NCBI GenBank assembly: GCA_903926075.1
Contig: CAIYHQ010000050.1
Span: 62,001 to 126,000, forward strand
DNA: 64,000 nt
Direction of reading: 5' to 3'
From: an uncultured Methanomicrobiales archaeon
GTDB taxonomy: Archaea > Halobacteriota > Methanomicrobia > Methanomicrobiales > Methanospirillaceae
Of the stretch, positions 28,105 to 37,243 are shown piece after piece. Made by a program: the position numbers and the translations under genes. The notes beneath the pieces were generated by a model. That model was not told the DNA's origin. It did not search any database and was given only the letters and a program-made list of their open reading frames with translations. Position 1 is the first letter of the stretch, and the number at the start of each line of letters is the position of its first letter.

Positions 28105-29631
28105 ATGAAACTCACAGTACGGCTTCTTGATATCGAAAAGCGGGGAGTGCTTATTCATAATGAGGATGCACGAAACCTCGGTGTTTTGAAAGGTGACCGG
28201 GTCCAGATCTTAAATGCTGTAAATGGAGAATCAACAGCTGCATTTGTAGATACAACAAGTACAATTCTCGTTCCTGGAAATGTAGGTCTATATCGTAATA
28301 CTAATGAGAAAGTTGGATTTAACGAGGGAGAATCGGCAGAGATCAGTGAATCAGGAAGACCCGTCTCACTTGATTATATAAAAAAGAAGATGAATGGAAA
28401 AAGGCTCACAAAAGATGAGACATATTCCATTGTTAAGGATATTGTCAGCGAAGATATATCTCCCTCTGAATTAATGGCCTATATCACGGCGACATATATC
28501 AACACGATGGACATGGATGAGATTGAATTTCTCACCCGTGCGATGGTTGATACCGGTGAACAACTCAGTTTTCATACAAAGCCGATTGTCGATAAACACT
28601 CTGTCGGAGGGGTCCCTGGGAATAAAATTTCGCTCGTAGTGGTCCCTATCATTGCAGCAAGCGGGCTTAAAATCCCCAAAACCAGTTCAAGGGCTATAAC
28701 CGGAGCTGCGGGTACCGCAGACCTCATGGAGGTTCTGGCACCTGTTAATTTTTCTGCAACAGAAGTCCAGCAGATGACACAAAAGGTTGGAGGAACAATT
28801 GTCTGGGGTGGGGCAACCAATATCGCACCTGCAGACGATAAAATTATTATCCAGGAGTACCCGTTTAAGATTGATGCGAGGGGCCAGATGCTTGCAAGTG
28901 TGATGGCAAAGAAATATGCAGTAGGTGCTAACCTTGTTGTGATAGATATACCGGTAGGAAAGAATACCAAAGTCGTATCTGTCCAGGATGGAAGAAAGCT
29001 TGCACGAGATTTTATTGAACTTGGTGAAAGACTGCACATGAAAGTCGAATGTGCAATGACCTATGGATCTTCGCCAGTTGGTCATTCAATCGGTCCAAAT
29101 CTTGAAGTTGCAGAAGCTTTGCGGGTCCTTGAGGGTGATCCTGAACCCTCATCACTTATCGAGAAGAGTCTTTCACTTGCAGGAATTGCACTTGAGATGT
29201 CTGGAAAGGCTGCAAAAGGAAATGGCATCAAAGTTGCTCGCGAAATCCTCGAGAGTGGAAAAGCTCTATTAAAATTTAAGGAAATTATTAGTATTCAGGG
29301 AGGTGACCCCAAGGTCAGTTCGGCAGACATCTTACCTGGAAAATACAAGTTTGTCGTAAAATCACCAGTAAATGGTTATGTTGTCGATTTTGATAATAAA
29401 GGTCTCATCACCCTTGCAAGAATGGCAGGTTCACCTCAGGATCGGGGGGCAGGGATACTCCTCCATGCCAAACGGGGTACAAGAATAGAAGCTGGAGACC
29501 CACTATTTACGATATTTTCAGAAAGAAACTGGCGACTCAATAAAGCGGTTGAAGAGGGAAGAAGACTGATGCCTGTCCTTGTTGAAGGGATGCTGCTTGC
29601 ACGTATTCCTGATGATATCAAATGGGAATAA
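28105..29631 (+). CDS. deoA: AMP phosphorylase
   Basis: Phosphorolyses AMP to ribose-1,5-bisphosphate and adenine, feeding the archaeal AMP-to-3-phosphoglycerate route with R15P isomerase and RubisCO. The 508-residue protein has an N-terminal archaeal extension (1-85), the thymidine-phosphorylase core with [11 protein letters not shown] (about 160), and [21 protein letters not shown] (quoted in part as [11 protein letters not shown]), and a C-terminal PYNP domain. The extended N-terminus separates it from bacterial thymidine phosphorylase. The other two pathway genes are not in the window. Confidence 0.93.
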
Positions 29632-29644
29632 GGTAGATGATATT

Positions 29645-31066
29645 ATGGTATGTATAAAATCTGTCTTATCTGTGTTTTTTCTATTGGTTATTTTTTTAAT
29701 TGCACCAATGGACGCTGCAACATTTAGTGTAATTGTTTTTGAAAAAACCTCAAATTCTACTTTGAGTATTCCATATGCCCTTGTTTATGCGAATAATGCA
29801 TATTTAGGAAGGACTGACAAAGATGGAACCCTTTCATTTACACTTCCTGGTGACGGTCCTTACCCGGTAAGTGTTGTAAAACCCGGATATACTACTTTCT
29901 CAGGTGAAATTGATGCAAATAACATGTCAATTCTTGTTCCACTGACAAAAGGAGATGAGAATGTTTCAATCCAGTTATTTGATGCAGACTCAGTAACTCC
30001 TGTTAGTGATGCGGATGTATTAATCCGGGGTGTAAATATCAGTACAATGCTCAAATCAGACTCAAATGGTTCAGTGAATTTCTTTGTCCCTGGCCAGAAC
30101 AGTTATAATATTGAGATGTCTGCCGCCGGATACGACCCAAGGATTGAGCATATCGATGTCAGTGTCGAGGACCAGAACCTCCAGTACTGGCTCTACAAAG
30201 AGGGAAGGTCTTCAATCATTGTTTCAGATGAGAATAATCGACCTATCTCCGGGGCAACAGTAATAAATGATGATCAGACCGTCGGAACTTCAAATGATAA
30301 TGGGATAGTTGTTCTACACCTATCACCAGGTGTATCTTACCCTGTGAAGATAAGGAAAGATGGGTTTGCAGAAAAAAGTATAACGCTCACAGGTTCAGAC
30401 AGACATGCATTAGAGAAGGTGACACTCAATAAGGCAGAAGATCAGGTCTCTATTCTTGTGTATAATGGCACCCATGAAGCGGTAGCCGGAGCTCAGGTCT
30501 CCTTCAATGGAACTATAGCAGGTTCGACGAATGAATTTGGAAGGTTGCGTTCAACTGGTTTCTACCGGGGAACGATAAACGTCAGTATTGTCCATCCGAT
30601 GTATGAGCCTGTAAACACAGAAGTTACATTCGATCAAGGGGATAATGAAAAGATCTTCATTCTTGAACCTGCTCGTGTCTCTGCGGTTCTTAATCTGATG
30701 GATGACAATGGAACCATCATCAGGGATGCCCAGGTAAAGATGAATGGTATTGAAATGGGTTTTACCGACAATGATGGTAATATTCTGCTTATGACCGCAA
30801 AAGGAGAACCAATTCATGTTACCGTGAACAAATCAGGTTATCAGCCTCTTTCAACAGACATCCCGGTACCTGGGGACCTCAACTCACTGAATATTACACT
30901 TAAACTTACAAAGATAGTAAAAAAAGAGGTCCCGGCACCGATGGCAATAGAAAATTATACCTGGCTTCTTGCAGTTCCTGTAATATTGATAGCCTGCCTT
31001 ATAATTGGTCTCATCCTGCGGCGTAAAGAGCATAAAGGTCATAGGAGAGGCGGTAGAGACCTCTAA
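29645..31066 (+). CDS. Surface protein with five carboxypeptidase-regulatory-like/PEGA repeats
   Basis: A 473-residue protein with a signal peptide (about 1-24), five modules of 75-95 residues each built as VSIxVxD...ISGAxVxxN...GxTxxxG...YPVxVxKxGY, and a C-terminal transmembrane helix with a basic tail. The modules resemble carboxypeptidase-regulatory-like or PEGA beta-sandwiches used as surface spacers. It starts 13 bases after the deoA stop. The frame reaches back to 29579 inside deoA, but ATG 29645 directly precedes the signal peptide. It is probably a cell-envelope adhesin or spacer; the ligand is unknown. Confidence 0.8.
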   Translation: MVCIKSVLSVFFLLVIFLIAPMDAATFSVIVFEKTSNSTLSIPYALVYANNAYLGRTDKDGTLSFTLPGDGPYPVSVVKPGYTTFSGEIDANNMSILVPLTKGDENVSIQLFDADSVTPVSDADVLIRGVNISTMLKSDSNGSVNFFVPGQNSYNIEMSAAGYDPRIEHIDVSVEDQNLQYWLYKEGRSSIIVSDENNRPISGATVINDDQTVGTSNDNGIVVLHLSPGVSYPVKIRKDGFAEKSITLTGSDRHALEKVTLNKAEDQVSILVYNGTHEAVAGAQVSFNGTIAGSTNEFGRLRSTGFYRGTINVSIVHPMYEPVNTEVTFDQGDNEKIFILEPARVSAVLNLMDDNGTIIRDAQVKMNGIEMGFTDNDGNILLMTAKGEPIHVTVNKSGYQPLSTDIPVPGDLNSLNITLKLTKIVKKEVPAPMAIENYTWLLAVPVILIACLIIGLILRRKEHKGHRRGGRDL

Positions 31067-31212: not shown

Positions 31213-31650
31213 ATGATACTATCCTCCCACGAGATAGTAAAGAGGCTTGAGGGAGATATCCCTGGTCCGCGACTTGTGATAGATCCGTATTCAGATAAAA
31301 GCCAACAGCCGGCATCATATGATCTAAGGGCAGGCGAGGATGTTATGCTCCGTCATGGACGCACCACACTTGTTGCATCCATGGAATGGGTTGAACTCCC
31401 GGTTGATCTTGCCGCAACACTAAGATGTAGATCAAGTTATGGACGGCGTGGAATTCTTTTGGGCGCAGGTTTTGTAGACCCTGGCTTTCGTGGTCAACTG
31501 ACTTTATGTCTTGTAAATATGGGCACAGAAGATGTCTCTCTTCTCCACGGTGAAAGAGTGGTCCAGATGATATTGCATGAAGTGAAAGGAAGCAATGATC
31601 TTTATCGTGGCCGTTATCAGGATAGTACCGGAGTAGTTGAAGCAAGATGA
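31213..31650 (+). CDS. dut: Probable dUTP diphosphatase, archaeal dCTP-deaminase-like family
   Basis: A 145-residue protein of the dCTP deaminase/dUTPase superfamily, with RSSYGRRG and the core GAGFVDPGFRGQLTLCL. In dCTP deaminases a catalytic Glu follows the DPG motif (xVLE); here the aligned residue is Cys (TLC), and the C-terminus is shorter than in deaminases. These two points favour plain dUTP hydrolysis, which supplies dUMP for thymidylate synthase. It overlaps nrpR by four bases, so they are translated together. Confidence 0.8.
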   Translation: MILSSHEIVKRLEGDIPGPRLVIDPYSDKSQQPASYDLRAGEDVMLRHGRTTLVASMEWVELPVDLAATLRCRSSYGRRGILLGAGFVDPGFRGQLTLCLVNMGTEDVSLLHGERVVQMILHEVKGSNDLYRGRYQDSTGVVEAR

Positions 31651-32597
31651 TTCATACCGAAAGAAAATATATTGAAATTCTCAGAATCTTAAAAGAACAT
31701 CAGGAACCGGTCGGAGCAAAACGTCTGTCTGAACTGATGGCTGAACGCGGTTTTGTCATGAGTGATCGTGCTGTTCAGTATTATCTTAGTTATCTTGATG
31801 AAATGGGTTTCACACAAAAGGTAGGAAATTATGGAAGAATTCTCACCGAAAACGGGACTTCAGAAACTGAGCGCGCACTTGTTGGAGGTAGAATCGGGTT
31901 CATAATCTCGAAACTTGAGAGACTTGCTTTCAGAAGTACATTTAATCCAGATACTGGGACTGGAGAGGTGGGATATAACCTTACACGTGTGCCTGAACCC
32001 ATTCTTGAAGGTGTGATTAGTTGTTTTGAGCAGGTTAAAAGATCAGGTCTTGGGTTTTTTAACGGTTACCGGATTATTGATAAAGACCCAAGAATCCCTA
32101 AAGGGAACGTTGGAATTATTAGTGTGTGTAGTATAACAATGGACGGAGTTTATCAGCGGCTGGGTGTACCGGTTAGAATGGCATTCGGAGGCCGGCTTTC
32201 AATAAAAAAGAATTCTCCTGATTGTTTTCTCGACGTGATTGCGTATTCAGGGACAACTGTAGATCCTCTTCAGATCTTCATCGCAGCAGGCCTCACATCA
32301 GTTCAGAATATTGTCCGAACCGGGAACGGTGTAGCCCTTGCAAATGTGCGTGAAGTTCCTGCGATGGCTGAAGGGATTATAAAAGATGTATCGGAATCAA
32401 TGGTCAAATGTGGTTTTAATCCCCCGGTATGTGTGGGAAGAGAAGTTCTTAACCTGCAGCCTGAACCGTCCAGAATTTCAATAGTCTCTTTTAGTGGAAT
32501 GAATTATATAGGAAATGCATGCGAACAGGGCTATAAACTTGAAACTGAAATAGGAGCAGGCAACATACCTTTTTCAAAGATATGTGAAGATAACTAA
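31647..32597 (+). CDS. nrpR: NrpR-family transcriptional repressor, single NrpR domain
   Basis: Nitrogen-assimilation repressor that binds 2-oxoglutarate in methanogens. The 316-residue protein has an N-terminal winged helix (about 5-65, GAKRLSELMAERGF, DRAVQYYLSYL) and one NrpR effector domain (about 80-316, including RLGVPVRMAFGGR and YSGTTVDPLQIFIAAGLT, quoted in part). Some lineages have two NrpR domains or two genes; this is the one-domain form with DNA-binding part. It follows dut in an overlapping operon. Confidence 0.92.
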   Translation: MIHTERKYIEILRILKEHQEPVGAKRLSELMAERGFVMSDRAVQYYLSYLDEMGFTQKVGNYGRILTENGTSETERALVGGRIGFIISKLERLAFRSTFNPDTGTGEVGYNLTRVPEPILEGVISCFEQVKRSGLGFFNGYRIIDKDPRIPKGNVGIISVCSITMDGVYQRLGVPVRMAFGGRLSIKKNSPDCFLDVIAYSGTTVDPLQIFIAAGLTSVQNIVRTGNGVALANVREVPAMAEGIIKDVSESMVKCGFNPPVCVGREVLNLQPEPSRISIVSFSGMNYIGNACEQGYKLETEIGAGNIPFSKICEDN

Positions 32598-32611: not shown

Positions 32612-33727
32612 TTATTCTTCAGATTCCTGAAAGTAAAAAGGGAATCCTGAAGCAATGATTACAACTGCAACAAAATGCGAATGTGGTACCGGGTAATCAC
32701 CTCCACGGATCTCACCCCCGGGAATCAAACGGTTTAGCCACTCCCTTGATGCCATGTACCCTTTCATAGAGAGTTCACGAGGTGGCCCTGCTACTAATAT
32801 AAGGGCCTTTTCTGCCATATGAGGATTGAATCTACAGGAGGGGTACTGATGGAGTGCCTGATGAGCAAGGTTCATTATACGAGTTGCCCTGGACTCGTCA
32901 TTGGTATAGCTGTCGCCAGATGAGAGCAAATCGCTAAGTCCGGATTTCAGGCCCTTTACCTGCTCTCGAGCATAACAAAGTGATATTAATCCTGTAACTT
33001 TTAAGGTGTTGATAATATCTCCTGCATCGACAACAACTTCCCCTGGTTTTTTTCCACTTTCACAGGCAGGTTCGCCAGCCCTGAGTATGACACTTATCCT
33101 GCGTGCTATTTCAATATTGAATAAACTCCACTCCTCTTTTTTTATCTCCTGAATATTAGGCTCCTGATTTTTCAGGAATGGTATCTGGATATCTCCCGAA
33201 TGTGATACTTTTGTTTTGATTGTCAAAGGGTCAGGTGTAATAAGATCATTTTCAAAGAGAAAAATCCCGTCAAGCTGGCCAGAAACTTTTTTTAGATCAA
33301 TTATTGCCTTCTCTCTCTTTTCAGGCTCATATTTAGGATCAGGTATAACAAAAATTCCAAAAACAGGTTCAATAACTGATGATCTTATGGTCTCAATGAG
33401 AGGACCGATATATTGAATTGAGGAACCGCCGAGACCACATATAAGAAAAATTGCGTCTGTCTCTCCAGTATCGTGGTTTAAAAGAGCCTCGGTTACTGCA
33501 TGGGGTTCGGGTCCTTTTTCAAAAGGACCGTCCGGTCCTACATGTATACGGGGGAAAAAAAGTTTCTGCCCTTCAGGCATGAGTTCGAGAGACTTTAATA
33601 CATCAGGATCAGTATTGACCGCAAGACCCGTAAAAGTCCTGGTCACTCTCTTTTTGTTTTCAAAATTATGCAAAGCTTCAACTATTCTCGATCCGGCTCC
33701 GCCCATTCCCACTGCAAGGACCCGCAT
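32612..33727 (-). CDS. Divergent tubulin/FtsZ-superfamily protein
   Basis: A 371-residue protein with the FtsZ-like N-terminus VGMGGAGSRIVEAL and AVNTD (36-40), but the GGGTG[ST]G tubulin signature is replaced by GLGGSSI (98-104). In the T7 catalytic-loop region VVDAGDI, Asp234 and Asp237 are kept while the usual Asn is not. A C-terminal GGEIRGGDYP segment is conserved-looking. It is neither canonical FtsZ nor clearly CetZ. It may be a non-canonical filament or a GTP-binding scaffold. It converges with nrpR and is divergent from mer. Confidence 0.78.
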   Translation of the reverse strand: MRVLAVGMGGAGSRIVEALHNFENKKRVTRTFTGLAVNTDPDVLKSLELMPEGQKLFFPRIHVGPDGPFEKGPEPHAVTEALLNHDTGETDAIFLICGLGGSSIQYIGPLIETIRSSVIEPVFGIFVIPDPKYEPEKREKAIIDLKKVSGQLDGIFLFENDLITPDPLTIKTKVSHSGDIQIPFLKNQEPNIQEIKKEEWSLFNIEIARRISVILRAGEPACESGKKPGEVVVDAGDIINTLKVTGLISLCYAREQVKGLKSGLSDLLSSGDSYTNDESRATRIMNLAHQALHQYPSCRFNPHMAEKALILVAGPPRELSMKGYMASREWLNRLIPGGEIRGGDYPVPHSHFVAVVIIASGFPFYFQESEE

Positions 33728-33865
33728 AATGCTCTCCTTTTCCTATAATCAGGAAATATGAGTAAATATGTTCGCGTCGTCAGGGGAAAAAGGCGATCAT
33801 TATGAAAACAAAATAACAATCTATTTAAATTTCCCAACTATAATAAAAGATGAAGTGAATTAAAA

Positions 33866-34852
33866 ATGAGTTATGGAATAGAGTTTGTACCAGGAAACGT
33901 AAACGTCAAGCAGGTAGTCAATTATTGTAAACTTGCTGAGTCAAAAGATATTGATTTTGCATGGATAACCAACCACTATAATAACCGCCACTGCTATCCT
34001 ACACTTGCAGCAATTGCGCAGGCAACGACAACGATCAAGATGGGACCAGGGATAATGAACGCCTTTACTGACACACCGGCAGCAATGGCATCATTTATCT
34101 GCACATTGAATGAAATTTCCGATGGCCGTGCAGTGCTCGGTATCGGACCAGGTGACTTGTCAACACTTCCAAAGCTTGCAATTAACCCTGAAAAGCCGGT
34201 AGCAAGGCTTGAGGAAGCTATCAGCGTGATAAGGAAACTATGTACTGGTGAAGAGACCACCACACCTGAGAACCAGTTCTTCAAATATTCAGGTGCAAAA
34301 CTTACTGGTGTCAATCTTCCAGGTAAGAAGGGCATATCCGTATACGTTGGTGCACAAGGTCCTAAAGTTCTTGAACTCGCAGGGAAAGTCGGCGATGGAG
34401 CACTTATCAATGCATCAAATCCTAAGGACTTCGAAGTAGCAATACCAATCATCAAAAAGGCTTGCGAAGCAGTCGGAAAGAAAGGATTTGATATTGGTGC
34501 ATATACAGCCATGTCAATTGACATGAACGAGAAGAAAGCAAGAAATTCAGCAAAAATTGTTGCGGCATTCATTGCAGCAGGATCGCCACCAGACCTTCTC
34601 AACCGTCATGGCCTTGACCTGAACAAAGTAGCAACAATCAAGTCTGCACTTGCAAAATTCGATTTCAAGACAGCAGGTGAGAATGTTGATGACAAGACCA
34701 TCGATGCATTTACAATTGCAGGCACACCTGACACTGTAAAGCAGAAGTGTGAAGACCTCATGAAGGCAGGGGTTACACAGATCATCTTTGGATCACCACT
34801 CGGTCCGGACATGACCACTTCAATCCGTCTGCTTGGGAAATATATCGTATAA
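33866..34852 (+). CDS. mer: 5,10-methylenetetrahydromethanopterin reductase
   Basis: F420-dependent reductase of the CO2-to-methane pathway: methylene-H4MPT plus F420H2 gives methyl-H4MPT. The 328 residues fit the luciferase-like TIM-barrel family: MSYGIEFVPG N-terminus, AWITNHYNNRH, GPGIMNAFTDTPA, and the YVGAQGPKVLELAGKVGDG segment (quoted in part as YVGAQGPK). Codon use is strongly biased, as in the S-layer gene. A TATA-like TATTTAAATTT near 33821 gives a short leader. Confidence 0.97.
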   Translation: MSYGIEFVPGNVNVKQVVNYCKLAESKDIDFAWITNHYNNRHCYPTLAAIAQATTTIKMGPGIMNAFTDTPAAMASFICTLNEISDGRAVLGIGPGDLSTLPKLAINPEKPVARLEEAISVIRKLCTGEETTTPENQFFKYSGAKLTGVNLPGKKGISVYVGAQGPKVLELAGKVGDGALINASNPKDFEVAIPIIKKACEAVGKKGFDIGAYTAMSIDMNEKKARNSAKIVAAFIAAGSPPDLLNRHGLDLNKVATIKSALAKFDFKTAGENVDDKTIDAFTIAGTPDTVKQKCEDLMKAGVTQIIFGSPLGPDMTTSIRLLGKYIV

Positions 34853-36850: not shown

Positions 36851-37243
36851 ATGCTAACTGAAAGGCAGAAGGAAGTACTTCGGTACAGGAAAGAGGGCCT
36901 GACCCAGCAGGAGATAGCAGACATAATTAAAACTTCAAAAGCGAACGTTTGTACAATTGAGCGTCTTGCCATGGATAATATCCGCAAGGCCCGTGAGGCA
37001 ATAGACTTCTATTATTCACTCGACAGTCACCACCTCTGTTCTATTGAAACTGATTCGGATATTAGTGATTCTATTGAAGAAATTTACCGCAAAGCAGAAG
37101 AAATTGGGATTAAAGTCAAATTCGATAGCATACAGCTTATGGCGCGGATAAGGGACTCGCACCCTGATCGTTTTCAACACAGGCGTGTAAAGAAACCAAT
37201 TGAAATTTATCTCTCAAATGACGGGTTTATTTATACTGCATAA
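36851..37243 (+). CDS. tfx: Tfx-family DNA-binding protein
   Basis: A 130-residue regulator. The N-terminal helix-turn-helix (LTERQKEVLRYRKEGLTQQE quoted in part: LTERQKEVLRYRK and LTQQEIADII) is of LuxR/sigma-4 type and the C-terminal acidic domain is characteristic of Tfx, first described as a binder of the fmdECB promoter for molybdenum formylmethanofuran dehydrogenase. Divergence from mtd suggests it also controls a methanogenesis gene here. Ribosome-binding site GAAGGATTAGG precedes the ATG. Confidence 0.9.
   Translation: MLTERQKEVLRYRKEGLTQQEIADIIKTSKANVCTIERLAMDNIRKAREAIDFYYSLDSHHLCSIETDSDISDSIEEIYRKAEEIGIKVKFDSIQLMARIRDSHPDRFQHRRVKKPIEIYLSNDGFIYTA

Follow-up and report, generated by a model that had tools for sequence, protein, structure and literature searches.

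A CetZ-derived member of the tubulin superfamily, with degenerate phosphate loops, conserved across the Methanomicrobiales

The window analyzed here, a 64,000-nucleotide stretch of contig CAIYHQ010000050.1 from an uncultured Methanomicrobiales archaeon, carries a tubulin-superfamily gene in the following setting.

31213..31650, plus strand: dCTP deaminase-like gene, a conserved neighbor
31647..32597, plus strand: gene for an NrpR-like regulator (HTH_12 and NRD1_2), convergent neighbor ending 14 bp from the open reading frame (ORF)
32612..33727, minus strand: ORF of 371 amino acids, encoding a CetZ-derived protein of the tubulin superfamily whose phosphate loops are degenerate (ORF call, Pfam, tree and structure)
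32645..33136, minus strand: CetZ_C domain, residues 198-361 (Pfam)
33732..33741, minus strand: Shine-Dalgarno-like AAAAGGAGAG 5' of the ATG (read from the sequence)
33866..34852, plus strand: mer, encoding F420-dependent methylene-H4MPT reductase, divergent neighbor

Elsewhere in the window, positions 29579-31066 encode a surface-type protein in which carboxypeptidase-regulatory/PEGA-like domains are repeated, with a hydrophobic segment at its C-terminus.

The window protein matched CetZ_C (PF21011) at 8e-34 (117 bits; cut-off, 21.6), and the same domain was matched by 36 of 36 family members. Its score against Pfam Tubulin (30.9 bits) fell under the curated cut-off of 33, and that against the FtsZ equivalog TIGR00065 was 23.9 bits where 295.2 are needed. 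By sequence, its closest solved relatives are CetZ1 (4b46) and CetZ2 (4b45) of H. volcanii. An AlphaFold2 model built on the family alignment (mean pLDDT 86.8, pTM 0.87) retrieved 4b45 and then 4b46 as its top Foldseek matches, with TM values of 0.71-0.80; the structure comparison proposed in a preliminary description of this DNA thus shows a CetZ fold for the predicted protein. Every motif quoted in that description (GMGGAGSRIV, AVNTD, GLGGSSI and VVDAGDIINT) is present in the ORF.

Our phylum survey detected an ortholog in 83 of the 83 genomes listed from the same family or order, with best E values of 1e-68 or below, while the next matches, outside Methanomicrobiales, start at 9e-53 and are other CetZs. 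Of 41 genomes in a survey of relatives, 39 have the ortholog; the other two are incomplete drafts (73% and 62% complete). Named members come from Methanoregula, Methanoculleus, Methanolinea, Methanofollis, Methanogenium and their relatives, all Methanomicrobiales; one contig labeled as a Thermoplasmata archaeon (L090) also carries a member and is probably mis-binned or mislabeled. The source genome encodes one further CetZ, which is canonical, and two FtsZs. All 83 genomes of the phylum survey likewise pair the ortholog with a canonical CetZ, and sampled genomes also encode two FtsZs and SepF. In a tree of 94 sequences, the 38 sampled members (38/38) form a single clade (support 100/99) that nests in the CetZ clan and is separate from both FtsZ and Methanosaeta-type CetZ. 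The branch joining the family with CetZs rather than FtsZ has support of 100/98. The exact sister group is uncertain, since the family's stem and the window protein's branch are both long. A grouping with Methanosaeta-type CetZ (3zid) was not supported, as those proteins retain GGTGSS and sit elsewhere, on the FtsZ side of the tree. The family is best read as a single-copy, order-restricted, vertically inherited branch found in essentially all Methanomicrobiales. A specialized archaeal tubulin group, offered earlier as a possibility, is what emerged: one clade with one copy per genome, confined to one order and with the T4 loss common to all members.

That loss concerns loops which, in tubulin and FtsZ structures, are established to contact the phosphates, the base and the next subunit. 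Their positions in the window protein, all on the minus strand, are as follows.

33686..33709, minus strand: T1 loop GMGGAGSR, residues 7-14, with the same glycines throughout the family
33608..33622, minus strand: T2 region AVNTD, residues 36-40, where the consensus of the family is A[IV]DxD
33503..33553, minus strand: T3 (gamma-phosphate) loop region, residues 59-75; canonical VKGHGVGTDN absent family-wide
33416..33436, minus strand: degenerate T4 loop GLGGSSI, residues 98-104, replacing GLGGGTGSGG
33245..33256, minus strand: T6 FEND, residues 158-161; Asn160 invariant, the expected base contact
33005..33037, minus strand: T7 loop VVVDAGDIINT, residues 231-241; Asp234 invariant, residue 237 Glu or Asp
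32687..32815, minus strand: S8-H10-S9 block, residues 305-347, among the best conserved parts of the family

GLGGSSI had been reported in place of GGGTG[ST]G, and the comparison bears this out across the family: the T4 motif is missing from 126 of 126 members, which rules out a sequencing artifact or a misread loop. In the 38 members aligned with canonical CetZ paralogs, T4 is one residue shorter and reads GLGG[ST][MVL]xD or similar, against the canonical GLGGGTGSGG, and in every one (38/38) the T3 segment VKGHGVGTDN is deleted, a feature beyond the T4 observation made earlier. The canonical CetZ encoded in the same genome retains G[ST]G[ST]G, as do its two FtsZs. Among the 126 sequences, Gly7, Gly9, Gly12, Gly100 and Gly101 are essentially invariant, with the subsequent T-G-S-G lost; Asp234 and an acid (Glu or Asp) at 237 occur in all 126, Asn160 in 125 and Asn204 in 123. 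The mean frequency of the major residue is 0.84 in T7 and 0.88 in S8-H10-S9, compared with 0.44 in T3 and 0.63 overall. At the sequence level, these patterns demonstrate strong constraint on the T1 glycines, the T6 and H7 asparagines, the T7 acids and the H10 block. From this pattern of loop conservation across the family, we conclude that erosion has affected the phosphate side but spared the base side and the catalytic T7 face.

The VxDxxD form of T7, previously regarded as anomalous, turns out to be ordinary, since VxDxx[ED] is the CetZ norm; T7 reads MVVDSSEIINT in 11 canonical CetZ paralogs. The second acid is Glu in 124 of the 126 relatives, making Asp237 a rare variant. Because valine in T7 is the normal CetZ state, only the T4 and T3 losses are unusual. 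The T7 acids may be retained for structural reasons. Altered nucleotide binding, also suggested earlier, is well supported by the family-wide comparison, and we consider it likely that the GTP cycle is impaired throughout the family. As the T1 glycines and the first glycines of T4 remain, binding of a diphosphate or even of GTP is possible. One alternative, to which we give an outside but real chance, is that these proteins still bind GDP or GTP, using T1, T5, T6, H7 and the GG left in T4, and assemble as unusual CetZs with slow or no hydrolysis. The near invariance of the T1 glycines, Gly100/Gly101, Asn160 and Asn204 would fit this, as would the Glu found at T5 residue 133 in 121 of 126 relatives. 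However, that residue is Tyr in the window protein, and in every member T3 is deleted and the Gly-Ser/Thr-Gly of T4 is swapped for bulkier residues.

The same data bear on whether the gene is simply decaying. Four close pairs with usable dS gave dN/dS values of about 0.10-0.13 for the family, compared with about 0.02-0.05 for canonical CetZ; the family evolves faster than its canonical counterpart yet is clearly constrained, and the dN/dS values led us to reject a pseudogene for the family. A CetZ duplicate that is eroding as selection relaxes, and is nearest to loss in the window lineage, would account for the terminal branch of the window protein, at 2.16-3.1 changes per column the longest in the tree, and for its lack of the C-terminal tail described below. 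This explanation is largely refuted at the family level by the presence of one ortholog in all 83 same-order genomes listed, by the dN/dS of about 0.1 in relatives and by the invariance of the T7 Asp and other columns, and we regard it as very improbable.

The preliminary description also drew attention to the position beside mer and nrpR. The mer, NrpR-like and dCTP deaminase-like genes adjoin the ortholog in 29-33 of 37 loci, and the wider block, comprising mer, a galT-like ORF, mtd, a ribosomal cluster and the NrpR-like and dCTP deaminase-like genes, is conserved in about 25-33 of the 37. The galT-like label is our own reading of the sequence; Pfam returned no match for this ORF. A Tfx-type transcriptional regulator adjoining mtd (window positions 36851-37243) is likewise conserved in the neighborhood. 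The mer/nrpR setting is therefore present but not peculiar to this genome: its occurrence in about 30 of 37 loci marks it as ancestral synteny, and chance adjacency is ruled out. Such a neighborhood could mean that the tubulin fold has been reused as a scaffold clustering enzymes of central metabolism (methylene-H4MPT reductase and dehydrogenase, and nucleotide enzymes), a proposal that also draws on the cofactor and nucleotide genes noted near cetZ genes in the main text of Brown and Duggin (PMC9856176). Against it, the gene diverges from mer and converges on nrpR, and so is not co-transcribed with either, and the conserved block extends into the ribosomal-protein cluster, as plain ancestral synteny would. 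We consider a scaffold improbable.

The window protein is much shorter than most of its relatives, whose tail is a second feature beyond the earlier description. After the globular domain these relatives carry a disordered-looking linker (median about 263 residues) and a conserved end peptide, D-D-G-I-[TS]-W-I-(R), for example DDGITWIR, which is present in 75 of 116 complete ORFs. Of 98 long tails, 66 have the terminal motif (0 after shuffling) and 58 have a [KR]DEMI-type linker motif (0.46 expected from shuffling). The [IL]EPLF-type C-terminus of canonical CetZ is absent, tailed members ending instead in ITWI(R). In this order, FtsZ1 and FtsZ2 terminate in peptides such as EIDFLK, GGLIDFIR and LLEWVG, and the family terminus resembles these C-terminal peptides (CTPs) at a level reached by 0.0045 of same-column permutations, a resemblance that depends on about five residues; most members have Thr or Ser at the position of the Asp in the GID of FtsZ. 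In the same control its resemblance to CetZ ends gave 0.26, leaving an inherited CetZ terminus unsupported as the source of the tail end. Archaeal FtsZ1 and FtsZ2 are similarly built of a globular domain, a linker and a short conserved C-terminal peptide, but archaeal FtsZ keeps its GTPase motifs, whereas the family lies in the CetZ clan and its linker is far longer. Archaeal SepF binds FtsZ C-terminal domains centered on the GID motif (PMC8178401), and SepF was found in 41 of 41 surveyed genomes. The peptide state switches at least 5 times on the tree, and the tail is lost in the lineage of the window protein, whose ORF stops just short of the nrpR-like gene. Given these switches and its absence from the window protein, tethering to SepF is not the core function.

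Tubulin-superfamily filaments normally run on a complete GTP cycle. The family protein, by contrast, would carry no nucleotide, or just a GDP-like one, and would lack a GTP cycle of its own. Through its intact T7/H10 ("bottom") face, it could then attach to a canonical CetZ or FtsZ subunit at that subunit's nucleotide face, and would there cap the ends of CetZ or FtsZ filaments, regulate them or serve as their adaptor. The window protein is probably such a non-catalytic cytoskeletal accessory protein and not a one-off oddity. Taken as a whole, an order-wide, CetZ-derived pseudo-GTPase docking on canonical filaments through its T7/H10 face is the account we favor, at somewhat under even confidence; docking through the T7 face, considered as a step by itself, we hold a shade more tentatively. 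In tailed lineages, the FtsZ-like peptide on its disordered linker would probably tether the protein to SepF or another adaptor, with SepF itself a candidate that we rate as rather doubtful. A still bolder version, in which an ancient, order-wide pseudo-GTPase branch with an FtsZ-style SepF-binding tail supplies a non-catalytic cap or adaptor subunit that connects CetZ-type filaments with the division ring, strikes us as unlikely. If phosphate loops have indeed been stably lost across an order with the T7 interface kept, the family would provide a natural test of the roles of the two subunit faces, and the FtsZ-like terminal peptide offers a direct, cheap test of a link between CetZ and division.

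Plant plastid-division ARC3 contains an FtsZ-like domain that acts as a regulator rather than as a polymerizing GTPase. It may offer a functional analogy, although it is not homologous to the family at the subfamily level; our literature search for ARC3-type analogs found none. The nearest known system is the canonical, "Halobacteria-like" CetZ of Methanomicrobiales, as termed in the main text of PMC9856176, which shares with the family its fold, CetZ_C domain, VxDxx[ED] T7 and genomes. Canonical CetZ, however, retains T3 and GGGTGSG and ends in an IEPLFE-type peptide, neither of which the family does, and its mean column identity is about 79%, against 46% for the family. The main text of Brown and Duggin 2023 (PMC9856176) reports that each Methanomicrobiales genome has two CetZs, of which one branches more deeply, so the proteins are already known as sequences. 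Because the genomes we checked hold just two CetZs besides FtsZs and weak partial hits, the "non-Halobacteria-like" CetZ of that text probably includes this family; there it is grouped with Methanosarcinales CetZ (PMC9856176), in contrast to the separate positions of the family and the 3zid-type proteins in our tree. In that main text we found no mention of the loop loss or the tail. What appears to be new is the pseudo-GTPase signature shared by the whole family, together with the FtsZ-like tail and the motif in its linker.

Our searches also returned divergent CetZs from haloarchaea. L200 (1633-2838 and 2874-4046), L201, L202 and L203, from haloarchaeal genomes, carry tandem pairs of a canonical-like and a divergent CetZ, the divergent partners forming a clade of their own. 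In the divergent partner of L203 (3514-4827), the pattern used did not find the T4 signature, a possible parallel loss, and a very divergent CetZ-like protein in L230 (42-1205), also haloarchaeal, has no recognizable T4 motif. Finally, proteins of ~1060-1100 amino acids with a weak partial tubulin match (G025:C1:190870, G037:C1:996200, G191:C1:1798977, G253:C1:724655 and G253 C2:530329) are perhaps of the FtsZ-like 1 type.
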